The notes below the pieces were generated by a model. The model did no database searches. It had not been told where the DNA came from and saw only the letters and a program-made list of their open reading frames with translations. 21,946 nt of DNA from a virus. A program made the position numbers and the translations under genes. Positions 5,280-21,299 of this stretch are shown one piece after another; the stretch's first letter is position 1, and each line of letters starts with the position of its first letter. The DNA is taken from the IMG/VR virus record IMGVR_UViG_3300035187_002120, positions 1 through 21,946 of that record; one strand, written 5' to 3'.

Positions 5280-5699
5280 ATGGCACGCAAATCAACACCA
5301 CGCACACTGACCGATGAGGCTATCGCCAAGGCGTTAATGGCCTCTGGCGGAGTCTACAAGGACGCCGCCGCAATCCTTAACTGCTCGCGTGGAACCATCT
5401 GGAGCCGGGTGTGCAAAAGCCCGGACCTGTTCCGTGTTGCCATTGAGGCCGACACGGCTACCGGCGCGAAAGCCGTCGAGAACATCAAGACGGCCATCGC
5501 CCGCGGGGATGTGCGCACCTCGCAGTGGTGGTGCAACTGCCGCATCCATGACCACTTCTCGCAGCGGCAGGAGGTCACCGGAAGCAACGGCGGCCCGATC
5601 AAGACGCAGGACGTAACCGACAGCATGACTGAGGAGCAGATTGATGCCGCACTCGCCAGACTGTGCCCCGCCGACAGCACGCCAGCTCAAGGCGGCTAA
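5280..5699 (+). CDS. terS: Terminase small subunit
   Basis: The 139-residue protein has an N-terminal helix-turn-helix (residues 22-45, GGVYKDAAAILNCSRGTIWS), then a helical stretch (AIEADTATGAKAVENIKTAI) and an acidic C-terminus. This matches HTH-type small terminases, which bind the packaging site and deliver DNA to the large subunit. The neighbouring large terminase, overlapped by 56 bases, makes the assignment firm. The start ATG 5280 has no obvious Shine-Dalgarno sequence in the preceding 25 bases, unlike almost every other gene here. The repeated 20-bp element lies 29 bases upstream. The C-terminal ~25 residues probably contact the large subunit (family knowledge). Confidence 0.87.
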   Translation: MARKSTPRTLTDEAIAKALMASGGVYKDAAAILNCSRGTIWSRVCKSPDLFRVAIEADTATGAKAVENIKTAIARGDVRTSQWWCNCRIHDHFSQRQEVTGSNGGPIKTQDVTDSMTEEQIDAALARLCPADSTPAQGG

Positions 5700-7113
5700 A
5701 CTGAAATGCCTGGCGCGCCGCGACCTACTGGCATTCCTCGACTTCTGCTGGTGGATGCCCGGGCCCCTGCACATCGGCCGGCATACCCGGGCCATCTGCG
5801 ACCGCATTACCCGCGCCATTGACGACCTGACACGGGGCATCAGCTCGTTTCTGGTGTTTGAGGTCCCTTTTCGCCACGGCAAATCGGACATCGTCTCCCG
5901 CGCTATGCCAGCCTACGCACTCGGCCGGCTCAAGGACCTGCAGCCCGACCTGATGATGACCGGGTACGGCGCCACGCTCTCGCAGAGCTTCTCCAGACAG
6001 GTTAAGCGCATCATGTGCGAGGACCGCTATCAATCCCTGTTCCCAGGCGTGCGGCCCGGCTACGGCACCAACAGCGCCTCGCAGTGGCGGGTTGCCGGCA
6101 GCGCCGGCGAGGTGAACGCCTTCGGCCTACAGGGCGGGTTGACCGGCAAAGGATACACGGTGGGGACGTGTGACGACTTCTGCAAGAACATCGAGGAAGC
6201 CCGCTCGCTAACCTTCCGCGATAAGACGTGGGATGGGTTCACCAACAACTTCCTGACCCGCCGGCACGACCCGTGTGTCACGGTCCTGACGGCCACGCCC
6301 TGGCACATTGACGACGTGATTGGGCGCACGATTGCGGCAATGAAGGCCGACCCCAAGTTCCCCCGCTTTGAGTTCCACTGCTTTCCGGCCCACAAACCGG
6401 GCGAAGGTGGGTGGGATTACCTGTTCCCAGAGCATTTCTCCCCGCAGTGGTATGACGGGCAGCGGGCCACGCTTGGCCGCGGCATGAGCGCCGCGCTGCT
6501 GGACCTCAACCCGATCTTCGAGGGTGGCAACCGCTTCGACGTGCGCAAGGTGATCCTGCATGAGACCAAGGACGGCTGGCCCGCCGGCCGCGAGGTGCGC
6601 TTCTGGGATCCGGCCAGCTCCAGCGCCCAGCGTGACAAGTCCGATCCAGACTGGACGTGGGGATGCCGTGGCACGACGACCAAGGAGAACACCCCCTACG
6701 GCTCGCGCCTGAGCGTGTGGATCTCCGCCATGACCGCATGCCGGGATGAGGCGCCACGCCGCAACGAGCTCATTCGCCAGACAGCCAAGGCGGACGGCCC
6801 CGCCGTGGCGCAGTATGTCGAGAACTGGGGCGGGTACAAGGACGCCTACACCGACCTCAAGGAGATCCTGCGCGGGGTGTGTATCGTCAATCCGTCGCGC
6901 CTGCCTGGGGACAAGAGCGCCAAGGCCGCCATCCTCGAGCCGGCATTCGACAACTCAGCCGTGCACGTCTACCTGCCCGGGTGCCGGGATGTGCTCGATG
7001 AGTGGAAGCGGCAATTCGAGGAGTTCCCCAACGGCAAGCATGACGATGCCGTTGACGCGACGGCCGGCATGGCCCACAGCGTAAGCAAGGCGGCGGTTAC
7101 GCTCCTGGTATAA
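5644..7113 (+). CDS. terL: Terminase large subunit
   Basis: This is the DNA-packaging motor ATPase and nuclease. From ATG 5644 (GAGGAG at 5631-5636; a TTG at 5641 is less likely) it has 489 residues. The Walker A variant is VPFRHGKS (74-81). The Walker B position is TCDDF (175-179), and TATPWHID (216-223) fits the coupling motif. In the nuclease domain, FWDPASSS near 320-327 supplies the first acidic residue and KHDDAVDA near 465-472 the last acidic cluster. Length and motif order are normal for the terminase_6/RNaseH-like family. It reads in a different frame from the small subunit and overlaps it by 56 bases. A 266-bp structured gap follows. Confidence 0.95.
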   Translation: MPHSPDCAPPTARQLKAAKLKCLARRDLLAFLDFCWWMPGPLHIGRHTRAICDRITRAIDDLTRGISSFLVFEVPFRHGKSDIVSRAMPAYALGRLKDLQPDLMMTGYGATLSQSFSRQVKRIMCEDRYQSLFPGVRPGYGTNSASQWRVAGSAGEVNAFGLQGGLTGKGYTVGTCDDFCKNIEEARSLTFRDKTWDGFTNNFLTRRHDPCVTVLTATPWHIDDVIGRTIAAMKADPKFPRFEFHCFPAHKPGEGGWDYLFPEHFSPQWYDGQRATLGRGMSAALLDLNPIFEGGNRFDVRKVILHETKDGWPAGREVRFWDPASSSAQRDKSDPDWTWGCRGTTTKENTPYGSRLSVWISAMTACRDEAPRRNELIRQTAKADGPAVAQYVENWGGYKDAYTDLKEILRGVCIVNPSRLPGDKSAKAAILEPAFDNSAVHVYLPGCRDVLDEWKRQFEEFPNGKHDDAVDATAGMAHSVSKAAVTLLV

Positions 7114-9679: not shown

Positions 9680-10807
9680 ATGGCTAATGATTTCCCTACC
9701 ACTCAAGTCGTCGCTGACTACGCGTCCATTTACATGGCGGAGTACGCCGGCGTCGCCAACCTGATGGACCGCTCCAATCAGGCCAAATTCACCGGCAACA
9801 AGGTCGGCCAGACCGTTCAGGTGATGGTCGAGCCGAATGCCGGGACCGCCAAAGAAATGACGGGCTCCACCAGCGCGTCCGATGCGACGGTCAACACGAT
9901 GGATTTGACCATCGAGCATTGGTTTTATGACCGTTGCGATCTCACGTCGAAGGAGCTTACCTTCGAGCTGCCGGATCTGGCAAAATATGTCATCGCGCCC
10001 AAGGTGCGTGGCATCATGACGGCGATCAACAAGTACGCGATCCAGAAGCTGCAGGTATTCCGGCAGAACATCGCGGGCACGGTGACGAGCCGCCCCAGCA
10101 CTGCCGCGCACATCGCCGCAGCGCACAAGGTTCTGCGTGACAACAAGATCGAAAAGAGCGGTCGCGTCGGCATCGTGGACACAACGGTTGAGTCGAGCTT
10201 TGTCCAGCTCGAGCAGTTTGCGGACACGGCGTTCGGCATGGACAACAGTGCCACCCTGCGCGAAATGGCGCTGGGCTACAAGTTCGGCACCGCGTGGTTC
10301 AGCGATCCCGACATGGGCGCTTTTGTGCGCTCGTCTGCGGCCAACGTCATCGCCGGCACCACCGTTATGGACGGGGATGCCGCGATTGGCGCCACGACCA
10401 TCCACATGGACGGCAACACCGCAGATGGCACCGTATACGCCGGGACGTGTCTGGTAATCACGGGCGACACGACACGCTATGTCTTGACCAAAGACGCGAC
10501 CATTTCCGGCAACGAGGGCGATTTGGAAATTAGCCCCCCGCTGGTGGTTGCCGCGCATGACGGCGATGCGATCACGTTCGAGGCGGCCGGGTTCGAGAAC
10601 CTCATCTTCCAGCCCAAGGCGACGAACCTTGTGGTGGTCGGTGGTGCCCCTCTGTGGGGTCTGGATTCAGTGGTCCAGAACTTCAACGGTTACGAGATTC
10701 GCGTGAGCCGTGGCGGGTCCATGACCAACCTGGCCAACAGCATCTGCTTTGACTGCTTCGTGGCGGCCAGAGTCGACCCGCGTGCGGGCGTGCTGCTCTG
10801 CGGTTAA
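9680..10807 (+). CDS. Major capsid protein, P22 coat-like
   Basis: The 375-residue protein begins MANDFPTTQVVADYASIYMA and has FTGNKVGQTVQVMVEP (38-52), the N-arm and early-strand pattern of P22 gp5-type coat proteins. Helices of the HK97 core follow (APKVRGIMTAINKYAIQKLQ, 106-125). Residues about 226-300 are a glycine-, threonine- and aspartate-rich beta domain inserted before the final core strands, as in the I-domain region of P22-like coats. It would form the icosahedral shell on the scaffold encoded upstream. GAAGGA before ATG 9680 is the ribosome binding site. A P22-type coat combined with a long-tail module is a known kind of mosaic. Confidence 0.88.
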   Translation: MANDFPTTQVVADYASIYMAEYAGVANLMDRSNQAKFTGNKVGQTVQVMVEPNAGTAKEMTGSTSASDATVNTMDLTIEHWFYDRCDLTSKELTFELPDLAKYVIAPKVRGIMTAINKYAIQKLQVFRQNIAGTVTSRPSTAAHIAAAHKVLRDNKIEKSGRVGIVDTTVESSFVQLEQFADTAFGMDNSATLREMALGYKFGTAWFSDPDMGAFVRSSAANVIAGTTVMDGDAAIGATTIHMDGNTADGTVYAGTCLVITGDTTRYVLTKDATISGNEGDLEISPPLVVAAHDGDAITFEAAGFENLIFQPKATNLVVVGGAPLWGLDSVVQNFNGYEIRVSRGGSMTNLANSICFDCFVAARVDPRAGVLLCG

Positions 10808-10891: not shown

Positions 10892-11329
10892 ATGAAGAAG
10901 ATCCTTTGGATTATCGCGGGGAGTTTGATGCTGGTTGCCCGGGTGGGCATGGCCGGCGATGACTTCTACGGCAATGACGTGGTCACGGCGCGTATTGCGT
11001 CAAACGTCACGGCTGAGATTGCGGCGGCGCTTGCGGCTGAAACGAACAGCATACACCTCGCGGCCTTGACGCTGGTTCAGGGCAAGGCCACGACCAACGC
11101 GGCGAACATCGTGTTGCTGCAGGGGTTGGGTTCGACAAACGCCGGGCTGATCTCGGCAGAGACGACCTACGCCAAACCGCAAGTTGACACCAACGCCACA
11201 ACCGACGCCACGCTGAAGACCCCGCGCTATATCGGGGACATGCTCGTGGGCTCGGCCGGTTCAGGCACCGGTGCGGTATGGGTGGCGACAGTTGCCACGA
11301 CAAACGGCTGGCTTGCGATCAAACCGTAA
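10892..11329 (+). CDS. Signal-peptide-bearing small protein after the capsid gene
   Basis: The product has 145 residues. It begins MKKILWIIAGSLMLVARVGMA, with two lysines, a hydrophobic core and a plausible cleavage site after GMA, the pattern of a Sec signal peptide. The mature part is rich in Ala, Thr and Asn (TNAANIVLLQGLGSTNAGLI) and ends in a tail-fibre-like YIGDMLVGSAGSGTGAVW segment. It resembles in style the large tail fibre encoded at 17639. A capsid decoration or fibre protein would not be expected to need export, so an exported surface protein is possible. GGAGGAAGG precedes ATG 10892. Confidence 0.72.
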   Translation: MKKILWIIAGSLMLVARVGMAGDDFYGNDVVTARIASNVTAEIAAALAAETNSIHLAALTLVQGKATTNAANIVLLQGLGSTNAGLISAETTYAKPQVDTNATTDATLKTPRYIGDMLVGSAGSGTGAVWVATVATTNGWLAIKP

Positions 11330-11340
11330 CCGGGGAAATC

Positions 11341-11535
11341 ATGGTCTCAATCCCGACATCGTACATCTGGAAAGGCGGCGAGCGGGTTCGCGTGAACACG
11401 CAGGATGCCGCGGAGTGGGTGGACAAGGGGTGGTCATTGACCGACCCCGCCACCGTTCAGCCGGCACCGGCCGCTGCGCCCGTCGTTCCGGTTGAGAAGC
11501 CGGCAGTAAAGCGGGGCAAGTCGAAGTCGGGCTGA
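11341..11535 (+). CDS. Small hypothetical head-module protein
   Basis: The frame is open from 11278, but ATG 11341, just after the previous stop and with GGGGAAA upstream, is the natural start. The product has 64 residues. Its N-terminal half is SYIWKGGERVRVNTQDAAEW plus VDKGW, a short motif seen in small phage proteins encoded near connector genes. The C-terminal half is a Pro/Ala-rich tail ending in basic KRGKSKSG. Its function is unknown; a minor head or tail-joining component is only positional inference. A strong terminator follows. Confidence 0.65.
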   Translation: MVSIPTSYIWKGGERVRVNTQDAAEWVDKGWSLTDPATVQPAPAAAPVVPVEKPAVKRGKSKSG

Positions 11536-11554
11536 TGCGAAAGCGTTGAATCAT

Positions 11555-11588
11555 GGGGCTGGCTGGCAAACACCGGCCAGCCCCTTTT
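11555..11588 (+). terminator. Intrinsic (Rho-independent) terminator
   Basis: A 12-bp stem is formed by GGGGCTGGCTGG (11555-11566) and CCGGCCAGCCCC (11573-11584), with one G-T wobble, around the loop CAAACA. TTTT (11585-11588) follows. It lies between the 11341 gene and the 11607 gene and would end transcription from the capsid operon, at least partly. Confidence 0.85.
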
Positions 11589-11606
11589 AAGTTTCGGAGG
11601 TGACAC

Positions 11607-12002
11607 ATGGCGATCAATCTGGCAGGGGCAAACACCTATTTTGGGAGCGGAAGCCACGTTTACGCGGCTGTCTGGAGCGGGTTCAGCACGAGCATGTGCA
11701 CGGCGGCCATAGCCATGGCCAAGCAGAAGTACAGCCGGGCGCTACGTCGCGAGTTGAACGAGAACGAACCGGCCTATCAACCGGGCGACTTCATCCGCGA
11801 GGACCGCGCGGTCTACGAGCAGGCGCTGGGCATGCTGATTGACTCCCAGATCGCCGACGCCACCGGAGCGACCCCACAGCCGCAGATCACCGGGCGCATG
11901 CAGGTGGACAATACCGGGCCGTTCATGTCGTCCACCTTCGGGTTCTACGACGCCGCCCTGGAGTGGCTGAACTTCTCAGGGGCCTGCGTCGTGAGGGGGT
12001 AA
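11607..12002 (+). CDS. Putative head-tail connector / head completion protein
   Basis: The 131-residue protein starts MAINLAGANTYFGSGSHVYA, with a helical middle (AKQKYSRALRRELNENEPAY) and a second helix (DRAVYEQALGMLIDS). Small helical proteins of this size directly after the coat gene are usually head-completion or connector proteins. The alternating helices and GDFIRED loop fit that group, but the similarity is weak. GGAGGTG before ATG 11607 is an excellent ribosome binding site. It is the first gene after the terminator at 11555-11588. An unrelated structural role cannot be excluded. Confidence 0.62.
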   Translation: MAINLAGANTYFGSGSHVYAAVWSGFSTSMCTAAIAMAKQKYSRALRRELNENEPAYQPGDFIREDRAVYEQALGMLIDSQIADATGATPQPQITGRMQVDNTGPFMSSTFGFYDAALEWLNFSGACVVRG

Positions 12003-12008
12003 ACAGCC

Positions 12009-12860
12009 ATGGCGACGCCGTTTGACAAGCTGCCGCGCATCGAGAAGCAGGCTGTGGGCGAGATGCTGAAGGTTATCAGCGAGGCTCAGAAGCAGGCGCG
12101 GCGCATTGTGGCCGATGCGGCCAGCTCCCCGGCAGCAGTCAAGGACGCGCGCACGCGCGATGCGGTCTATCAGGAGATCCTGGCGACCTACAAGGACGCC
12201 ACGAAGCCGCTTGACGACATCCTGCGGCGGCTCATCACCAAGTCGGGCGCCATTGGAAACCAGGCGGCGGGCCTGAACGTTGCGTCCGGGGTTGACATCG
12301 TGCAGTTTAACGAGAAGCGCCTGCGCCAATACTGGCAGTACGTGGCGCCGGAGAACTCCAAGAGCCTTGCCGCCACCCTGACCGAGAACATGAGCAACCG
12401 CGCGGTGAGCCAGCTGCGCACGGCCTTTGTGGACAACTTCCGCGAGGCGGGCGTGCAGGGCTGGACCGCGCGGGAGACCCAGAAGAACCTCCAACTCAAG
12501 TGGGATGCGCTGGCCGGCGACCGGGACGCGTTCCGCTTCGTGGACCGTGGCGGAAAGGTCTGGGAAAACGCGCGTTACACACAAATGCTGGTCCGGACTA
12601 ACTCGCAGCGGGTCAGCCGGGAGAGCTTTGTGGACACCCTGGCGGAGTCCGGCATCGGCTACGCGCGGATCTCCAACGACTCCCCGCTGGAAAGCAGCAC
12701 GGAAGTCTGCGCGCGGTGGGCAGGAAAGATCATTTCAGTGGGTGGTACAGACCCCGACTTCCCCAGCTACCAGGACGCTCTGGATGACGGTATGTTCCAC
12801 CCGAACTGCCTGCACAGGCTGGAACCGGTCCTGCCCGAGCAGGTAGAGGCGGCGAGGTGA
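12009..12860 (+). CDS. Minor head protein (Mu F / SPP1 gp7-like)
   Basis: The 283-residue product has a long helical N-terminal two-thirds and a characteristic C-terminal segment: RTNSQRVSRESFVDTLAESG (about 197-216), then CARWAGKII (starting at C234) and finally GMFHPNCLHRLEPV, with H264, C267 and H269. The combination of C-x-x-W-x-G-K with HPNC-x-H is the hallmark of Mu gpF/SPP1 gp7-type minor capsid proteins, probably a metal or disulphide site. Such proteins are injected with or bound to portal and DNA. These genes usually sit next to portal; here it is downstream of the coat gene, a mild rearrangement. There is a weak ribosome binding site (GAGGGGG at 11994-12000). Confidence 0.83.
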   Translation: MATPFDKLPRIEKQAVGEMLKVISEAQKQARRIVADAASSPAAVKDARTRDAVYQEILATYKDATKPLDDILRRLITKSGAIGNQAAGLNVASGVDIVQFNEKRLRQYWQYVAPENSKSLAATLTENMSNRAVSQLRTAFVDNFREAGVQGWTARETQKNLQLKWDALAGDRDAFRFVDRGGKVWENARYTQMLVRTNSQRVSRESFVDTLAESGIGYARISNDSPLESSTEVCARWAGKIISVGGTDPDFPSYQDALDDGMFHPNCLHRLEPVLPEQVEAAR

Positions 12861-12863
12861 GGC

Positions 12864-13235
12864 ATGGCGGGCAACCCCAAAGGCTATGACGACGTGATGC
12901 GGCAGCTCAAAGACATGCCGACCACGCTGGCCTACGGGCTGCGGACGGGTCTTGAGGAGGCGGCGGTTTGGGTGCAGGCGGAGGCCAAGAAGCGTTGTCC
13001 ACGGTCGCCCAGCCAGGCGGAGATTGATGATGGTATGCGGCGCCGGAGTGATGCCAAAGACCCCGCAAGGAAGGCCAAAAAAGCCGAAATGCGGGAAAGA
13101 GAGAAGGCGCACAAGAAGGCTCAGTCTTTAAAATCACGCGCCCGGGAAAAAGCGCGTAGAGCGAATATTAAACGCCAAAATGAGGCGACCATTAAGCGGG
13201 TGGAAGATCGCAACCGTAAGAAGCGGGGTGGATAA
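12864..13235 (+). CDS. HK97 gp10-like protein, N-terminal half plus Lys/Arg-rich extension
   Basis: The product has 123 residues. Residues 1-57 (GYDDVMRQLKDMP, then GLEEAAVWVQAEAKKRCPRS) match the opening helices of HK97 gp10-like tail-completion proteins, which normally reach about 130-170 residues and continue into a Gly-x-Leu-x-x-Ser-Ile strand. Here residues 58-123 are instead an almost continuous Lys/Arg/Glu-rich stretch (RKAKKAEMREREKAHKKAQS). The missing C-terminal half is encoded by the next gene, whose ATG overlaps this stop as TAATG (13233-13237). The natural reading is one ancestral gp10-like gene now split. The DNA of the charged part is A-rich compared with flanking genes. Confidence 0.68.
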   Translation: MAGNPKGYDDVMRQLKDMPTTLAYGLRTGLEEAAVWVQAEAKKRCPRSPSQAEIDDGMRRRSDAKDPARKAKKAEMREREKAHKKAQSLKSRAREKARRANIKRQNEATIKRVEDRNRKKRGG

Positions 13236-13627
13236 TGGCGCTGCGCAAACTACGCAAGAAGCAGTCCGACTCCCGGGAGAAGCGGCGGGACGCATACCGC
13301 GCCAAGATGGGGCGCTCCGCATTCTCTCGCGCCGTGCCTGGCGGGCTGGAGCGTTCTATTGACTTTTTAGTGGAGGCCGAAGTCGGGCAGGAGGCCAAGG
13401 CGACGGTGTTTGTGTCCGGTTTTGCGGAGGCCAAGGAGTACGCCGAGTGGATGGAGGACGGCCCCTATCAGTTGGGCATCGGCTCTCAGCACAAGCAGGC
13501 GACTGGGGGCGAGGTGGTGGGGCCCGGCTTCCTGCAGCGGGCGGGAGACGAGAGCGGACCGGTTATTCAGGGCATTATCGAGCGCAATTTAAACGCGGCA
13601 ATCAAGAAAGCACAGGGGGGATTATGA
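13235..13627 (+). CDS. HK97 gp10-like protein, C-terminal half
   Basis: The product has 130 residues. After a basic N-terminal stretch (LRKLRKKQSDSREKRRDAYR) it runs GGLERSIDFLVEAEVGQEAK, then EYAEWMEDGPY and GPGFLQRAGDESGPVIQGII. These are the conserved C-terminal elements of HK97 gp10-like proteins: the G-x-L-x-x-S-I strand, YA-x-x-x-E-x-G and the terminal F-L-x-x-A helix. It starts at the ATG overlapping the stop of the gene carrying the N-terminal half. No independent strong ribosome binding site is seen beyond GCGGGG, so reinitiation is likely. The two products together would build the head-tail joining ring component. Confidence 0.75.
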   Translation: MALRKLRKKQSDSREKRRDAYRAKMGRSAFSRAVPGGLERSIDFLVEAEVGQEAKATVFVSGFAEAKEYAEWMEDGPYQLGIGSQHKQATGGEVVGPGFLQRAGDESGPVIQGIIERNLNAAIKKAQGGL

Positions 13628-14088
13628 TCAATCCGGCATCATTCGACACGGCATGGACCGAAGCAGAAGCGGCGGCGTTCGGGCATTTGTGCAGCGCCAC
13701 GGGGGCCGCGCCCAACGAGGGGGCGTTTATCGGCAGGACGTTCAACATCGCCAATGGGTTCTGGTTCACCTGTGCGCCCATGGGCCGGGAAGGCACCCAG
13801 ATCTTTCTCCAGTGCCTGGACTTCCCCACCATGACGACGCCCGCCTACGCCATATTGACTTACCAGCGCCGGCCGGTAGCCCAGGAGGCGGTGATGAAGA
13901 TCATCCGCGCGCTGCCGATCCGCGACGACGCGGCCAGCAATGTGCATCTGTTCCGGCTCACCAACGTCGGGGAAGTGGAAGCGGAGCAGAAGAATGTGCC
14001 AAACTCACCGCAAAAGGTGCTTTTGTGGACCGTGCGGCTCGATTTCGACCTGACTTTCATCACGGGCGGGAAGGCCAACAGCATATAA
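13624..14088 (+). CDS. Putative tail terminator / tail completion protein
   Basis: The frame is open from 13447, but ATG 13624 overlaps the upstream stop as ATGA and is preceded by AGGGGGGA, so it is the start. The product has 154 residues. It was not recognised by motif. Its position between the gp10-like genes and the tail tube candidate is where tail terminators lie. The alternating LFRLTNV and LLWTVRLDFDLTFI strands fit the beta-rich fold of those proteins. The first half contains a conserved-looking FDTAWTEAEAAAFGH helix. The stop is followed immediately by copy 4 of the 20-bp element at 14089. Confidence 0.68.
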   Translation: MINPASFDTAWTEAEAAAFGHLCSATGAAPNEGAFIGRTFNIANGFWFTCAPMGREGTQIFLQCLDFPTMTTPAYAILTYQRRPVAQEAVMKIIRALPIRDDAASNVHLFRLTNVGEVEAEQKNVPNSPQKVLLWTVRLDFDLTFITGGKANSI

Positions 14089-14108
14089 TTGACTTCAGCC
14101 CTTTTAAT
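14089..14108 (+). promoter_or_regulatory. Late-gene control element, copy 4
   Basis: This copy reads TTGACTTCAGCCCTTTTAAT and begins at the base after the upstream stop codon, 32 bases before the tail tube candidate start. Its first 17 bases are identical to copy 2. Confidence 0.7.
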
Positions 14109-14140
14109 AGCGGGGCAACGACACAAAAAGGAGCACGATC

Positions 14141-14860
14141 ATGGCCGTAGCATTTTTTAATCCCACAGCAGTTTCCACCGTCCTGACGGATTGGGTCGTC
14201 CAGAACGACAATCTCGGCATCTCGTCCGACGTGTCGGGCGGCCTGCGTGCCGATGGCGATTCCTATGGCACCGGCGCGGGAGAGACTGACTCCGTGACGT
14301 TGTTCAACCAGAAAACGAGCACCAAGCCGACCATGAAGTGCTTTATTGCCACCGGCGACCTGACCCTGGCGGCGGTTGGCGATCTGATCACCCTGACCGC
14401 GCCGGCCGTGGCGCAGCATTGCGACACCGTGAACCTGAAGCTGAACGTGGGCGACTTCCCCGAGCTTTCCCTCGACCTGCACACGCACGGCTCCTCCGCC
14501 CACCCCGCCTGCCGAGTGTACGAAGGCTCGCCGACGTTTGCGGCCGGCCGCGGGATCCCGGTAGCCCCCGGTGGGTTCGCCCTGGTTGACGCGACCAACG
14601 GGTGGTCGAGTTTCGATTACACGATTTCCGCCAAGCACACCGACGAGCCCGGTGGCGACGGGGAGACCTTGGCCAGTGAGAACAACGATGGAACCGAGGT
14701 GGTTAACTGCACGGTCCTCGGCAATGGCGGCGTCACCCCGCCGGTGGCCGTCCCGGTGTGGCGTGAGGTCACGTCCGACAGCGACCGGTCCAACAACACG
14801 GCCGAGAAGTCGAAACACACGTTTTCCCGGCATCTGGCGTTCACACCGGCCGTGCCGTAA
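14141..14860 (+). CDS. Putative major tail (tube) protein
   Basis: The 239-residue protein is rich in beta-prone Thr, Val, Gly and Ser residues, with alternating strands (TVNLKLNVGDFPELSLDL) and a later WSSFDYTISAKHTD segment. Its place after the tail terminator candidate and before the chaperone and tape measure candidates is typical for the tail tube subunit. It also has its own copy of the 20-bp element, as expected for a highly expressed structural gene. AAAAAGGAG before ATG 14141 is a strong ribosome binding site. No specific family motif was recognised; an Ig-like or other tail-decorating protein is an alternative. Confidence 0.65.
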   Translation: MAVAFFNPTAVSTVLTDWVVQNDNLGISSDVSGGLRADGDSYGTGAGETDSVTLFNQKTSTKPTMKCFIATGDLTLAAVGDLITLTAPAVAQHCDTVNLKLNVGDFPELSLDLHTHGSSAHPACRVYEGSPTFAAGRGIPVAPGGFALVDATNGWSSFDYTISAKHTDEPGGDGETLASENNDGTEVVNCTVLGNGGVTPPVAVPVWREVTSDSDRSNNTAEKSKHTFSRHLAFTPAVP

Positions 14861-14878
14861 GCAGGAGGGAGCGATGAA

Positions 14879-15778
14879 ATGCCTCTCTCATTCAATGCGA
14901 AATTTAGGCTGGATGACCTCAAGGCCAGGGGCATCTCCCCCACCCTGACCGAAACCATTGCGCTGAACGACCTGGGGCTTGCCGTTGACAACGCCGGATC
15001 AGGCGCCTTCCTGCGCGAGCGTGGTCTGCCTGTGATCGTAGGGGGCGCAAAACTGTGGCCCATGACGTGCCTGGGCGCTTCAGTCTGGGACGACTGGGCC
15101 GAGTGGTTTGGGGCGTCCGCCATGCTGTCCACCATCGCCCTCGCGTTCATCCTCGCCCACGGCCGCGACAAGCGGGTCGCCATCAAGAGCAATTTCCGGA
15201 TAGCGCAGTCGGTTTTGAAGGTCAAAGCGCCACCCGTCACACCCGAAAAAGAACCTGCCGTCACGCTCGACCAGATTACCGACAGGGCGACGGCGTTGCG
15301 GGCCATCCTGAGCTGGTTCTCCGACCTGACCTGCACAATCGCCGAGCTGGACGCCGCCACCGGCCTGCTGCTTGGCCATCAGGAAGCCTCCTCCCGCGCC
15401 ACAGCAAAGCAAGCGGCCTTTGTCCTGCTCGACAGGTATCAGGACGACCCCGCCCGGTGCGAGGCGTTGTCGGGCATCCTGGACGACCTGACCGAAAAGG
15501 AAAAGCAGGGGGCCAAGGCGGTTGAATCCCTCTCGTGGCGGCAACACTGCAACGAGCTGGGCGTGCTGACCGGAACCGACCCCGACTACTGGATGCGGTC
15601 CAGCCGGGCGGAAACCGTGCGCTGCTACGCGCTGGCCGTTGAGCATGACGCGGCCAAGGCCGGCGGCGAGACCGGGATGCTCACGCCCACCGAGCGGGCC
15701 ATCAAGGCCTTGCAGAAGGAATATGCCGAGATCATCGAGCGCCATACGCCGCCGCCGGATGCAACGGAGAAAAATTAG
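14879..15778 (+). CDS. Putative tail assembly chaperone or tail accessory protein
   Basis: The 299-residue protein lies where siphoviruses encode tail assembly chaperones, between tube and tape measure genes. It is mainly helical. Residues 66-95 contain a moderately hydrophobic stretch (ASVWDDWAEWFGASAMLSTI, then ALAFILAHG). Near 240-260 lies DYWMRSSRAETVRCYALAVE, similar in style to the W-x-x-T/S-x-x-E-x-x-x-x-x-x-A helix of chaperones that contact the tape measure. It is a single uninterrupted frame, and I saw no slippery site giving a G/GT-type frameshift product. AGGAGGG at 14863-14869 supports ATG 14879. The function is positional inference. Confidence 0.6.
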   Translation: MPLSFNAKFRLDDLKARGISPTLTETIALNDLGLAVDNAGSGAFLRERGLPVIVGGAKLWPMTCLGASVWDDWAEWFGASAMLSTIALAFILAHGRDKRVAIKSNFRIAQSVLKVKAPPVTPEKEPAVTLDQITDRATALRAILSWFSDLTCTIAELDAATGLLLGHQEASSRATAKQAAFVLLDRYQDDPARCEALSGILDDLTEKEKQGAKAVESLSWRQHCNELGVLTGTDPDYWMRSSRAETVRCYALAVEHDAAKAGGETGMLTPTERAIKALQKEYAEIIERHTPPPDATEKN

Positions 15779-15780
15779 CC

Positions 15781-17289
15781 ATGGCAAATATTTTACAGTA
15801 CATAATTGAGGGCATAGACAACACCAGAGCGGCGAATGCGTCTGCTCGCGCCGAAATGGAAAAGACCAGGGCCAAGGCGAATGAATCGTCAAGGTCATCC
15901 TCGCAAAGCGCCAACCAGACCATGCGCGGGTTTGGTGGGTCAATCATGGCAATTACCAAAGCCGTGAGCTACGGCACACTGATAGTCAGCACGTTCATCG
16001 CGGCATTTAAGGGTACAACCAAGGCGCTCAACTGGATTGACGGATTGACAAGCGGAATGACGCGGTTTAAGGCTGGGCTTGATGCCGCCCGTGCCGCCCA
16101 CAAAGAGTTGCAGGCGCAACTCGAAATGCAGGGCAAGATCGACCTCGAGAATCTGGAGAAGGCAAACAAGGCCCGTGAAGATGAAGCCAAAGGGAAACAG
16201 GAATACAACACATCCGTCACGGGGGTGCAGCAGTCGTTTTCGGAAGTGGATGCCGCGAAGCGCAATGCAAAGACGGAGGCGGATGTTGCGGCCGGGGGCG
16301 ACGAGGAGGCCATCCGCGCCAAGCTGCAGATGGAAAACGACCTGCAAGCGAAGAATGACGCAAAGGACCTTGCGCGCAAAGAGGCTAAAAACAAAAAAAT
16401 TGCCGAGGACGCCTACAACCAAAACCTCGAGGCAAGCAAGCTCGAGTACGACAAGAAGATGGCGCTCGCCAAAGAGTTTGCGCAAAAGGCGGAAGACATA
16501 AAGGCACAGAATCCGAATATGCAAGAGGCGTCGCCAAACCAGATGGAGGGCGACAAAAGGGCCGCGGCATGGAAAAAGTTTACCGAGGCGAGAACGGCGG
16601 CGGCGGAGTATAAAACGCAAGCCGAGGCCAGTGGTTATGACCCAACCGGCCGCCGCGCTCTTACACTTTCAAACGAAACCAAGGCGGCAGAAAACAAGGC
16701 AAACGCTCTTCAAATCGAAGTAGATGCACAGGCGCAAAAAAACGCCAACGCCGAAAAGGCACGTTTGGCCGAGATCAAGAAAGCCAAGGACGAAAAGTAC
16801 CTCGCTGAACACCGTTCGACCCTGCAGGACTTAGAGTACGCCAAGCAGGACGCTCAAGATAAAGAGGACGCATCAAAAGCTAGGCAGAAATTCGCCCTCG
16901 AGGACCAGTTGGCCGCGGCCCGCGGGCAAGCGGCGCCGGCCGCCGACGCCCTGGCGAAGGCCAAGGAGGCCGCCTCCGTCGCCATGCAGGCGTACCGCTC
17001 GCCCGAGTTCCGGCGCCAGCAGAAAGACGATGCCCGCGAGCAGGCGCAGGAGGAGAAGCGGCTGCAGCGGGATCTGGAGCGGGTTGACGAAAAAAAGGCC
17101 CGCGCCGAGAAGTGGGGCGGCAAGATTCACCTGACGGACCAGGAGAAGGCCGCGCTGGGCGTGCGCACCACCCGCGCCGCCGAGAAGGCCGCTCGGGCCG
17201 CCGACGCGCGAATCGGCATCAACGTCGAGTCGCTCTCCAAGGATATGCAGGACTTCCTGCGCAAAAACACGCTGGGAGGTAACACCTAA
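15781..17289 (+). CDS. Tape measure protein
   Basis: The 502-residue protein is Ala-, Lys-, Glu- and Gln-rich and almost entirely coiled coil from about residue 95 to 470. It has one hydrophobic segment near 53-75 (SIMAITKAVSYGTLIVSTFI), a layout typical of tape measure proteins, which set tail length and can act in genome entry. At about 1.5 angstrom per residue the tail would be roughly 75 nm, a short siphovirus-like tail. The first two-thirds of the gene (to about 16890) are A-rich; the last third is much more G+C-rich, which suggests recombination within the gene. No peptidase domain is seen. Confidence 0.82.
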   Translation: MANILQYIIEGIDNTRAANASARAEMEKTRAKANESSRSSSQSANQTMRGFGGSIMAITKAVSYGTLIVSTFIAAFKGTTKALNWIDGLTSGMTRFKAGLDAARAAHKELQAQLEMQGKIDLENLEKANKAREDEAKGKQEYNTSVTGVQQSFSEVDAAKRNAKTEADVAAGGDEEAIRAKLQMENDLQAKNDAKDLARKEAKNKKIAEDAYNQNLEASKLEYDKKMALAKEFAQKAEDIKAQNPNMQEASPNQMEGDKRAAAWKKFTEARTAAAEYKTQAEASGYDPTGRRALTLSNETKAAENKANALQIEVDAQAQKNANAEKARLAEIKKAKDEKYLAEHRSTLQDLEYAKQDAQDKEDASKARQKFALEDQLAAARGQAAPAADALAKAKEAASVAMQAYRSPEFRRQQKDDAREQAQEEKRLQRDLERVDEKKARAEKWGGKIHLTDQEKAALGVRTTRAAEKAARAADARIGINVESLSKDMQDFLRKNTLGGNT

Positions 17290-17630
17290 TGGCTATTCTC
17301 ACGTCACTTCCCGCCATCGTCCACGTCAGCACGCTGAGCGCCGAAAGCGTCCAGCTGCTATTCAAGAGCTTCTACACCGGCTTTAAGACGGTGACGAAAA
17401 CCACCGTCACGACAGAGGAATACCGGTTCATCACCAAGTCGCTGGCGGAAAGCACGGCGGCGGCCCTGTCATCCGACACCACCGCGGCCGGGGCCGGCGG
17501 TGTTCGGTACACCCGCACGCTGGTCACAGGCAACGCCCAGCGGGCTGGACAGGCTGGCAACTACACCTGCACCAAAACCACCGCCGTCCAGGCTGTTTAC
17601 AACCCGGTTGCGTTTGATCTCACCCCGTAA
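17289..17630 (+). CDS. Small hypothetical tail protein
   Basis: The product has 113 residues, rich in Thr, Ala and Val, with predicted beta strands (SLPAIVHVSTLSAESVQLLF, then YTCTKTTAVQAVYNPVAFDL). It begins at an ATG overlapping the tape measure stop as TAATG, with GGGAGG at 17274-17279, and precedes the signal-peptide tail fibre gene by eight bases. I do not recognise the family. By position it could be a distal tail or baseplate component joining tube to fibre, but it is much smaller than usual Dit proteins. Confidence 0.65.
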   Translation: MAILTSLPAIVHVSTLSAESVQLLFKSFYTGFKTVTKTTVTTEEYRFITKSLAESTAAALSSDTTAAGAGGVRYTRTLVTGNAQRAGQAGNYTCTKTTAVQAVYNPVAFDLTP

Positions 17631-17638
17631 GGAGAAAC

Positions 17639-19993
17639 ATGAAAAGCAAAATCATCGCCGCAGTTATGTTTGCCGCCACAGCCGCTTTCGGGCAGGCGAC
17701 ATTCGAGATCAAGAGCGATCTCAGCCGCCAGCTTGTGCCGTTCAATCTTCAAATCACCGAGGACATCGGCGCGACCATCACGGCGCGGTTCCTTTACGAG
17801 GGCTCCGATCTGGTCGTCACCAACTCCACCGGGCTGCTGGCCTACGGTAGCGGCGGCGGGGGCGTGTGGCTGACGAACGACACCGTGAGCGGCTCCACAA
17901 TGACATGGACGATCTCTGGCGGCAACACCCCGACCAACGGGCGATACAACGCGCAGATTTTTGGCGTGACGGGCGCGGTGACGCAGGAGTGGGCTCGCGG
18001 GAATCTTTCGGTAAGACTCAACACGAGCCGCTCTTTCCAGCCCACCAACTGGTTCAGCGGTGCGGTGACGATGAGCGACTTCCTGAGCTTCTCCAACTCC
18101 ATCACGGCGCGGGTGTCGAATCTGGAAACCAACGGCACGGGCGGCGGGGGCGGCGATCTGTCGGCCTTGAGCAACGGGCTGTCGAGCGTGTCCAATCGCC
18201 TTGTGACGCATACCGGCCTGACCACCGCGGCGCACGGCGGGATTGTGGCGGATACTGATGCCCGGCTCACCAACTCGCGCCCGCCTACCGCGCACACGCA
18301 GGACTATACCAGCATCACGGGCGCGATCCCTTGGCTCACGGTTGAGGCTGACACCAATGCGCTGGCGGTTGTCGCCGCGCTGACGAATCAGGTAGTCTAT
18401 ACCAACGATGCGCGGCTCACAGATGCCCGCACCCCGCTTGCCCACAATCAGGCATGGGGCAGTATCACTGATGCGCCCGCCATCCCCGCGCAGATCGCTG
18501 ACCACACCGCGCTGACGAACCAGAACGGCTCCACGAACTTCATGCACCTCACCACGGCGCAGGTTGCGCGGGTGGCGGCATCACTCACCAACGAAACGGA
18601 CGCGATTGCGATGGACGCGCTGACGAATGGGACGGTTTGGGCTTCATTTCAACAGATTATGATTGATGGCATATCCATCATAGGCTCGCCATCGACAGGT
18701 TTAATTGTTCCGATTGGCGAGGGAAGTAGTCTTGAAAACATAAACACGCTCCCCGAACTCGTCCGCACCAACGACACGCGGTATCTTGCGGCAATCTCCA
18801 ACATCATCGTGAACGGCACGACAGGCACGGTGGCGGCGGGTGTGGCGAGCGTGACGATTACGGATTCCGACACCAACTATGTCGCAAAGACGGGCGATAC
18901 CATGTCGGGCGCACTACTGACAGACCGCACCACGGGCTTTCTCGCCAACGAGCTTGTACCCGCCAACTGGGTGCGCGAACTGCTGGCGGTGGGTACGCCA
19001 ATCTACATGACCACCAATATCGTTGCGGTGGGCTGGCTTCCCACAAACACCACATTCGCTGGACACACCGTAGTTCCCGCCGCATCGTTCAGCGAGAATG
19101 TGACGGTGACGGGCGCACAGCAGTATGTTGCGTCCATGATTACCACCAACGCCATCACGGGTCTGTTGCGCTCGCCCGTGACGGCTGAGATATTCCTTTC
19201 ATCTCCCGGCGGGGGGGGACGCTCGCTGTCGGCAAAGCCTGAGATTTACTGGACTACCAACAAGGCTGACTTGACGATCACCAATGGCGATTTCAGCGCG
19301 GCGGCTCAGGTGATTACCTGCAATGGCACGACCAACCGCTACACGTTCTCAATAGCGTTTCCTGAAGTAACATTGACAAACGTGTATATCGTCGCGCGGC
19401 TCAAGACCACGGCGGTTGGCGGCAGCACGACCAATGTGGTGCTGTCTGCTGGCGGAACAACGCCCAGCATGATTCAGTTCCGTATGCCTGACGCCGCGTC
19501 AATATCGGGCGGCGGCATCACCAACCTGACGGCATCCACCAACAGCGCGGGTGTTGCGGTGCAGGTTGACGCAAGCAACTGGACGATTGGCACAAGCATT
19601 GTCGCCACGGCCTCGCTGGACACCAACACCGTGATTGCCTTGGCGCAGGTCGTTGCCACCAATGCGGTGAATGACGCGGGGCGGTATCCGTACATCTTGG
19701 CATCCGCGCCCACCACCACGCTCACCCGCGCCATGGGCAACCTCGTCATGCTTGAGCTTACCAGCAATGTGACGCTGTTCCAGATTGACAACACGGGCTG
19801 GTCAACCAATGAACGCGCATACGGCGAGCTTGACCTTGACCTCAAGGGGTTCTCATTCGCGTGGAACACCAACGTGGGTCAGTTCAGCGGAACGTCTACG
19901 CTGGTAGTGCCGACCAACGGCATGGCGCGTTTCCGGTGGGATGGGCTTCCACATCGTGACACGAACACGGCAAACAAGGCGGTGCGTCAATGA
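17639..19993 (+). CDS. Large tail fibre protein with N-terminal signal peptide
   Basis: The 784-residue protein starts MKSKIIAAVMFAATAAFGQA, a convincing Sec signal peptide (two lysines, hydrophobic core, AxG/GxA cleavage region). The remainder is very rich in Thr, Asn, Ala and Gly. Two fibre-type repeats lie near 207-227 (DARLTNSRPPTAH) and 257-277 (DARLTDARTPLAHNQ), the DARLTDxRxPxxH element common in phage fibre stems. Near 418-440 lies AKTGDTMSGALL, another fibre motif, ahead of a long beta-rich tip region. It is likely the receptor-binding fibre. No chaperone domain or peptidase was recognised. A run of eight G at 19211-19218 lies within the coding frame. AAGGAGA precedes ATG 17639. Confidence 0.82.
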   Translation: MKSKIIAAVMFAATAAFGQATFEIKSDLSRQLVPFNLQITEDIGATITARFLYEGSDLVVTNSTGLLAYGSGGGGVWLTNDTVSGSTMTWTISGGNTPTNGRYNAQIFGVTGAVTQEWARGNLSVRLNTSRSFQPTNWFSGAVTMSDFLSFSNSITARVSNLETNGTGGGGGDLSALSNGLSSVSNRLVTHTGLTTAAHGGIVADTDARLTNSRPPTAHTQDYTSITGAIPWLTVEADTNALAVVAALTNQVVYTNDARLTDARTPLAHNQAWGSITDAPAIPAQIADHTALTNQNGSTNFMHLTTAQVARVAASLTNETDAIAMDALTNGTVWASFQQIMIDGISIIGSPSTGLIVPIGEGSSLENINTLPELVRTNDTRYLAAISNIIVNGTTGTVAAGVASVTITDSDTNYVAKTGDTMSGALLTDRTTGFLANELVPANWVRELLAVGTPIYMTTNIVAVGWLPTNTTFAGHTVVPAASFSENVTVTGAQQYVASMITTNAITGLLRSPVTAEIFLSSPGGGGRSLSAKPEIYWTTNKADLTITNGDFSAAAQVITCNGTTNRYTFSIAFPEVTLTNVYIVARLKTTAVGGSTTNVVLSAGGTTPSMIQFRMPDAASISGGGITNLTASTNSAGVAVQVDASNWTIGTSIVATASLDTNTVIALAQVVATNAVNDAGRYPYILASAPTTTLTRAMGNLVMLELTSNVTLFQIDNTGWSTNERAYGELDLDLKGFSFAWNTNVGQFSGTSTLVVPTNGMARFRWDGLPHRDTNTANKAVRQ

Positions 19994-20508
19994 AAAAGTA
20001 CTATCACCTTGATTCGGGCGCAGAGTACCAAGGCCAGAGCATCGAAGGCATGTACAACCCCGCCAGCGACCACGCCTACATGGTGTCAAAGGGGTGGCGG
20101 TATGGCGAGCTTCCCGACATCACGGCAGGGTTCACTCGCGTTGTGTCAGGCGCACACCAAGACCCTGACCGCTCAGACTGGTGCGTGTTGGATTACATGG
20201 ACTACTCACAGGAAGCCATGGCGGAACAGGCGCGGTTGGCGAAGCTGGCAACGATCACGCCTGAACTGATGCAACAGGCCGCTGTATTCCGCTTGACCCT
20301 TCGCCGTCACTTTGGCGACAACGCGGAAACGAATACCAATGTCACGCAATCGGCGGTGGCTGGCTACTTCACGCAGAAGCAGGTCGCGCAGACGATCACC
20401 GCCGCAGAGCTTGCCGATGCCGTGATTCTGAATGAACTGTTCGCCGCCATTTCCGCATGGACGGGTGACGGCACAACGTGGTCGTTCCCTTACGAGTTAT
20501 TGCCATGA
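19990..20508 (+). CDS. Fibre-associated hypothetical protein
   Basis: The 172-residue product begins MKKYYHLDSGAEYQGQSIEG, with no signal peptide, and overlaps the fibre gene stop as ATGA. It has a helical middle (EAMAEQARLAKLATITPELM) and a later QKQVAQTITAAELADAVILN helix. Small genes directly after fibre genes often encode fibre-assembly chaperones or tip proteins, and the early YxxxSGxxYQG pattern recalls parts of such proteins, but I cannot assign a family. Its stop overlaps the start of the LamG gene (ATG 20505). Confidence 0.65.
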   Translation: MKKYYHLDSGAEYQGQSIEGMYNPASDHAYMVSKGWRYGELPDITAGFTRVVSGAHQDPDRSDWCVLDYMDYSQEAMAEQARLAKLATITPELMQQAAVFRLTLRRHFGDNAETNTNVTQSAVAGYFTQKQVAQTITAAELADAVILNELFAAISAWTGDGTTWSFPYELLP

Positions 20509-21299
20509 TTAAACGCTTGATATTAGCGGTTATGCTTGCCACATCCGCCATCGCGCAGATGGACGATGACGGCACTTGGGTCTGCCAGACCTGCCCAAGC
20601 ATATCGCAGGGGCTGGTGAGCCTGTGGACGTTCAATGACGGCACGGCAGTTGACAACTACGGAACGTCCAACGGTGCGCTGTCCAATGGCGCGTCAATCG
20701 CATGGGCAACCGGACTCGCGGGGCGGGGCGTGGACTTTGACGGCACGAATGACAACATCTTTATTGCAGACAACGACACCAACACCTTTGTCACCACCTA
20801 CCCCACCAACAAGGCGGGGTCAATCTCGCTGTGGATTTGGAAAGACACGACAAACGACCTGAACTACTTTGCCAAGGCGGATAACACCACGGCGGGGTCA
20901 ATCGAGTGGGCGTTGAACACCTCAAGCATGAAGCCGATCATTACGCTCTACGACAACGGCACGGCAAGCCGCATCAGCAGAACATGCGATGCTGCTATCC
21001 CGCTAGCCACATGGACACATTTGGTTTTTGTTTACACAGGAGGAGCAACTGCAAACCACCTTTTCATTTATGTCAATGGAGTATTAGCTGCATCCACAGG
21101 TGGTGGCGCGGGTACGTTTGTCTGCACGCGGCAGACCACCTCCAGCATCCGCATGGGTGTGGGCATTGTGCTGGCAGCATCCCCGTCATGGTTCAACGGG
21201 CGGGTTGACGATGTGCGGTGGTTCAGCCGCGCCGTGACCAGCACGGAGGTAACGGGGTTGTATCGTGCGGGTTCATATCTGCGAAACATAGGGAGGTAG
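20505..21299 (+). CDS. Secreted LamG-like (concanavalin A-like) carbohydrate-binding protein
   Basis: The frame is open from 20478, but ATG 20505 overlaps the previous stop as ATGA and gives a protein that starts with a signal peptide (MIKRLILAVMLATSAIAQ, cleavage after AIA). The 264-residue product has a CQTC pair just after the signal. A full LamG/laminin-G_3 domain follows: LVSLWTFNDGTAVDNYG, GRGVDFDGTNDNIFI, SISLWIW, WTHLVFVY, LFIYVNGVLAAS and WFNGRVDDVRWFSRA. Such domains bind carbohydrate and occur in phage adhesins. Its signal peptide resembles that of the large fibre, suggesting shared origin. It is probably a host-surface-binding partner of the fibre, or an exported surface protein. 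Confidence 0.85.
   Translation: MIKRLILAVMLATSAIAQMDDDGTWVCQTCPSISQGLVSLWTFNDGTAVDNYGTSNGALSNGASIAWATGLAGRGVDFDGTNDNIFIADNDTNTFVTTYPTNKAGSISLWIWKDTTNDLNYFAKADNTTAGSIEWALNTSSMKPIITLYDNGTASRISRTCDAAIPLATWTHLVFVYTGGATANHLFIYVNGVLAASTGGGAGTFVCTRQTTSSIRMGVGIVLAASPSWFNGRVDDVRWFSRAVTSTEVTGLYRAGSYLRNIGR

Follow-up and report, generated by a model that had tools for sequence, protein, structure and literature searches.

Predicted export signals on a tail fibre, a LamG protein and a post-capsid protein in the late gene block of a phage related to Verrucomicrobia/Kiritimatiellia-type prophages

Why would the late gene block of a tailed phage encode virion-type proteins that begin with export signals? 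The usual assumption is that a tailed phage keeps its receptor-binding proteins in the cytoplasm until the cell lyses. A conserved export signal placed directly before a tail-docking domain, as predicted for the locus described here, breaks with that rule and would imply either that the virion is assembled in two compartments or that the fibre has a second job at the cell surface.

Three predicted signals in one late gene block

The window, by which we mean the whole stretch of 21,946 bases that was analysed (IMG/VR record IMGVR_UViG_3300035187_002120, positions 1–21,946), carries a phage late block on the plus strand. The block comprises the large terminase subunit TerL (5644..7113), a portal, a scaffold-like gene, a P22-type major capsid protein (9680..10807; phrog_283, 2.4e-41), head-completion genes, tail proteins (14141–14860 and 17289–17630), a coiled-coil gene assigned as tape-measure-like on position and composition only (15781..17289), and the fibre-region genes, whose upstream border that gene forms. 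The initial annotation had pointed to signal peptides on the proteins starting at 10892, 17639 and 20505. Its coordinates and reading frames are correct, and all three proteins begin with a complete Sec/signal-peptidase-I-type signal, as judged by our own n/h/c-region heuristic (not SignalP), with a basic n-region, a hydrophobic h-region of moderate length and an AXA-type cleavage site but no lipobox at the end. P0001, a 145-residue protein encoded just behind the capsid gene (10892..11329, signal 10892–10954), reads MKKILWIIAGSLMLVARVGMA up to the cleavage site and continues with GDDFYG; its start is preceded by the Shine–Dalgarno (SD) sequence GGAGGAAGG. P0002, a 784-residue tail fibre (17639..19993), begins with MKSKIIAAVMFAATAAFG followed by QA and TFEIK, has the SD sequence AAGGAG, and could be cleaved after AFG or GQA, so that its signal spans 17639–17692 or 17639–17698. 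P0003, a 264-residue LamG protein (20505..21299, signal 20505–20555), begins with MIKRLILAVMLATSAIA and continues with QMDDD; it has no clear SD site, and its ATG overlaps the stop codon of the preceding gene (ATGA). That preceding gene (19990..20508, plus strand) encodes a 172-residue protein without a signal, possibly a fibre accessory protein, whose only match is to phrog_3658 (E 0.036).

Among all called genes in the window, including TerL, the capsid gene and the tape-measure-like gene, the heuristic flags only P0001, P0002 and P0003. It passes 11 of 11 textbook signals and has a false-positive background of 1.1% on shuffled phage N termini. In distantly related phages (L026–L093), 12 of 561 genes downstream of TerL (2.1%) score after removal of exact duplicates, a control count in which some of the 12 are probably real signals. 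From their sequences, the N termini of P0001–P0003 are very probably working export signals. The further proposal that the second and third signals form a common module built on AVM-x-AT-x-A is unsupported: their similarity ranks sixth at the DNA level and 27th at the protein level among 406 signal pairs, and equally high scores occur between signals whose genes are clearly different and come from different phages.

We collected related phages and their hosts through TerL. Relatives found in genomes come mostly from metagenome-assembled genomes (MAGs) labelled Verrucomicrobia, Lentisphaerae or Kiritimatiellae. One of them is the L106 prophage, whose contig also carries mfd and a tRNA-Asp gene; the genome that it belongs to falls in the same class as a Kiritimatiellae MAG. 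Because the relatives include this prophage beside mfd in a Kiritimatiellia-class MAG, the host of the window probably belongs to the Verrucomicrobia/Kiritimatiellia-type group. A separate contig (L107), binned as Alphaproteobacteria, carries a TerL 48% identical to that of the window, reflecting either a binning error or a wider host range.

Signals recur at two positions across the clade

Gathering the clade by TerL alignments yielded relatives where single-protein scans of viral contigs for the fibre, tail protein and TerL gave no match, the corresponding capsid scan gave one weak match, and a single-protein fibre scan of genome contigs gave none. Across 20 deduplicated stretches including the window, 20 of 232 late genes carry signals (p 8e-5 against the control phages), with two of the 20 matches flagged as possible membrane anchors. 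The positions of these signals are more telling than their number. Each of the 20 belongs to one of two places. One is a head-proximal slot that follows the capsid gene immediately or almost so, except in L151, where it lies between portal and scaffold; the other is the group of fibre-region genes behind the tape measure. None of the genes for portal, scaffold, capsid, head completion, tail tube or tape measure in the 20 stretches scores for a signal.

These data bear on whether the signals might be chance hydrophobic N termini or products of wrong start codons. A false-positive rate of 1–2% and the lack of a clear SD site at P0003 could be read in that way, but the slot pattern across the clade, taken with the controls, rules out a chance origin. 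Starts lying downstream of the signals are likewise unlikely, and a wrong-start artefact is ruled out by the SD sites, by the stop–start overlap and by homologues that keep the character of the signal although its letters have diverged; clade starts are ATG, nearly all with SD-like sites. We regard this explanation as hardly credible.

The post-capsid slot, anchored by the capsid gene, holds a signal-bearing protein in 14 lineages (the window, L145, L014, L015, the L016 group, L017, L149, L153, L156, L158, L021/L161, L164, L167 and L106). The count includes genes of L015, the L016 group and, in one case, L158 that carried an anchor-like flag or lay just below the threshold and were retained on the strength of their scores and visual inspection; the L145 gene, missed by the gene caller, was taken from the list of open reading frames. 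In L167, one unsignalled gene separates the capsid gene from the signal-bearing one. Five clade members (L018, L152, L155, L160 and L163) lack the signal in this slot, as do more distant relatives. After cleavage, the proteins that fill the slot would belong to several families, those related to P0001 having in common a (G/D)xFY(G/D) motif shortly behind the cleavage site. That different proteins in the slot all carry a signal points to selection for export at this position. In the L153 homologue of P0001 (14941–15423), the signal ends in an ALAGC lipobox followed by GGDSFYD, which marks it as a predicted phage lipoprotein in the capsid-gene neighbourhood; for that protein at least, a lipid anchor would suit a place in the envelope better than one in the virion. 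P0001 itself has no match among annotated phages, and its model, a long helix with a small C-terminal beta part, is of low confidence (pLDDT 57) and too poor for a fold search. In two other stretches (L160 8237–9307 and L167 13916–14989), the capsid frames are open upstream of the usual start and would encode a hydrophobic stretch (MFESLFSILGVFGLFSVLGVVATSTKV and MLNIDVLMGLCGLVGLWGCLGVVATATKV, respectively), which, though recurring in both, is probably upstream non-coding sequence.

A predicted tail-docking domain behind the fibre signal

The first mature domain of P0002 (17696..18067), directly behind the signal, is predicted to be a BppU-type beta-sandwich. Delimited by alignment (A6), this domain gave an AlphaFold model with pLDDT 88.4 and pTM 0.82, for which Foldseek returned baseplate proteins of TP901-1, 80alpha and NF5, including the N-terminal domain of TP901-1 ORF48 (E 5.9e-6 to 3uh8 and 4.7e-6 to 6v8i), and, in BFVD, many BppU-domain proteins. 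Pfam sequence models (up to E 10) and a PDB sequence search gave only noise with the same domain. Judged from the model, the domain thus resembles BppU at the level of the fold and is not a member of the Pfam sequence family. In known phages, the BppU-type domain docks receptor-binding proteins on the tail, and P0002 would therefore carry a tail-docking domain directly behind its export signal. Further along, P0002 contains fibre-type repeats, and residues 203–309 match minor tail proteins of Gordonia phages (39%, E 1e-6). The predicted docking fold makes the original identification of P0002 as a fibre firmer.

Comparison with the upper baseplate BppU proteins of TP901-1 (ORF48), 80alpha and NF5 is instructive. 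As in those proteins, a conserved docking domain with this predicted fold is followed by a variable body, and the gene lies behind the tape measure. By contrast, P0002 has a Sec-type signal in front of the domain and no match to the Pfam sequence models, no Dit partner is recognised within the window, and the host is probably a diderm PVC bacterium.

The first 140 residues of P0002 recur in L095 (43%), L113/G014, L118/G229 and G485 (pieces L125 and L128), in front of bodies that differ, and G620 and G621, which are closely related to the L095 phage, have the N-terminal domain as well; a conserved N-terminal domain joined to a variable remainder is the arrangement seen in receptor-binding fibres. 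The homologues in these six further records, which represent three or four lineages, all have N-terminal signals, and where mature domains are 37–43% identical the signals are kept while their letters have diverged. Conservation of signals in related phages, for which the initial annotation had proposed a search, is thus found at both the fibre gene and the slot behind the capsid gene. The main irregularity is a distant homologue in G556 (L126 619–1881, minus strand, and L131), in which the BppU-type domain is present but the N-terminal signal is absent; an internal hydrophobic stretch around residue 163 looks signal-like, and the next two genes carry signals. Neither portal nor capsid was among the genes called from TerL to the neck genes of G556, which may therefore be a decayed prophage.

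The LamG assignment of P0003 is clear (PF13385 at residues 101–249, E 1.4e-16, 61.4 bits against a curated cut-off of 27.6), and the protein also matches the virion structural protein family phrog_8510 (2.9e-15). Secreted bacterial LamG/concanavalin-like adhesins likewise combine a signal with PF13385, whereas P0003 is encoded in a phage late operon. Among LamG relatives, those in L003–L008 have no signal at the LamG gene by the heuristic, which rules out the LamG domain itself as the bringer of the signal. A different gene order is seen in L002 (5690–8042), where three consecutive signal-bearing proteins occur, one of them with a LamG domain and starting MRNLIIFLVVMGICASASAQ.

A possible route through the periplasm, and its rivals

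The signals, the conservation of their slots, the docking fold and the host group of the relatives are computed results. From here on, we infer Sec export, cleavage, a periplasmic fate, attachment of the fibre and LamG protein at lysis, and the site at which P0001 acts. In our proposal, this lineage would make its host-facing accessory proteins as Sec precursors: the post-capsid protein, the BppU-docked fibre and the LamG adhesin would pass into the periplasm and have their signals removed. Heads and tails would meanwhile be built in the cytoplasm, as suggested by the finding that none of the head and tail genes carries a signal. Once the inner membrane is breached at lysis, finished tails could pick up the fibre, via its BppU-type domain, and probably the LamG protein as well. 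We hold the full proposal, which also places the window in a siphovirus-like phage or prophage with a Verrucomicrobiota/Kiritimatiellota-type host, tentatively, at a little less than an even chance. It is doubtful, although a serious possibility, that a tailed-phage lineage of PVC bacteria completes its virions outside the cytoplasm by two-compartment assembly, with Sec-exported fibres and decoration proteins folding in the periplasm and docking on released capsids and tails.

Precedents exist for phage proteins that are exported and act elsewhere. Lambda Lom bears a signal and is encoded between the tail spike and tail fibre genes (PMC12309495), and Llp of T5 is an exclusion lipoprotein (PMC9586334). 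Both are envelope proteins. Lom is an outer-membrane beta-barrel, whereas the proteins that bear signals in the window are a docking-domain fibre, a LamG protein and a post-capsid protein. T5 Llp is a phage-encoded exported protein, as the lipobox predicts for the L153 homologue of P0001; P0001 itself lacks a lipobox. To our knowledge, the T5 Llp gene does not occupy a capsid-gene slot. These precedents, together with the lipobox in L153 and the fact that adhesins with signals, LamG proteins included, are a normal part of the host cell surface, favour the idea that the exported proteins act in the host envelope only and are not virion parts, serving to mask receptors, exclude superinfection, shield progeny from debris or let lysogens adhere. 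Against this idea, P0002 begins with a predicted tail-docking fold and contains fibre-type repeats, and the window would be left with no visible tail fibre, as P0002 is the sole fibre-like gene behind the tape measure and the window has no unsignalled fibre-like gene. We consider such roles, taken jointly, unlikely but deserving of weight.

A compromise, in which the signal is used only in part, so that a fraction of the fibre remains cytoplasmic and joins tails while the rest is exported for receptor masking or cell-surface display, has the appeal that a functional signal on a fibre that is also part of the virion would require one gene to do both. The moderate length of the h-regions is in its favour too, but the signals appear strong rather than weak, and we think dual localisation distinctly unlikely. 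Less probable still is that the signal-like N termini are not used for export and are instead hydrophobic virion anchors, assembly leaders or neutral relics, such as might come with genes that the phage acquired from a host. The internal hydrophobic segment of the G556 fibre and the possible derivation of the LamG genes from host secreted proteins are compatible with such an origin; the full n/h/c architecture, the AXA-type ends and the lipobox in one homologue argue against it, as do the recurrence of signals in unrelated proteins at the same slot and the persistence of signal character despite diverging letters, and we would be surprised if it were correct.

The reading that we prefer is export followed by late attachment at lysis. 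In the literature covered, mostly without subscription papers, we found no report of BppU-docked or other signal-bearing fibres of this kind and no precedent in tailed phages for periplasmic fibre attachment or two-compartment assembly. Phage diversity-generating retroelement (DGR) target proteins are reported to lack signal peptides, which has been used as support for their phage origin (PMC6199706); pipelines that take a signal peptide as evidence of a bacterial gene would misfile fibres such as P0002. For the little-known Verrucomicrobia-type phages, export tags on a fibre and on a small capsid-adjacent protein suggest that parts of the virus cross the host membrane before lysis. The export interpretation with which the work began accordingly survives in part: export-type signals on virion-block proteins, kept in related phages, stand, and the shared module does not.

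Signals also occur in phages with more distant TerL proteins. In two such Kiritimatiellae/Lentisphaerae prophages (L108 17593–19062 and L109 17670–19121), a protein of 483–489 residues in the virion block carries a signal. On the reverse strand of L143 (1992–6429; G622, the same phage as L047), whose TerL is only distantly related (27%), proteins of 1318 and 158 residues encoded directly after TerL both begin with Sec-type signals, and signal-bearing fibres may be present in other phage groups too.
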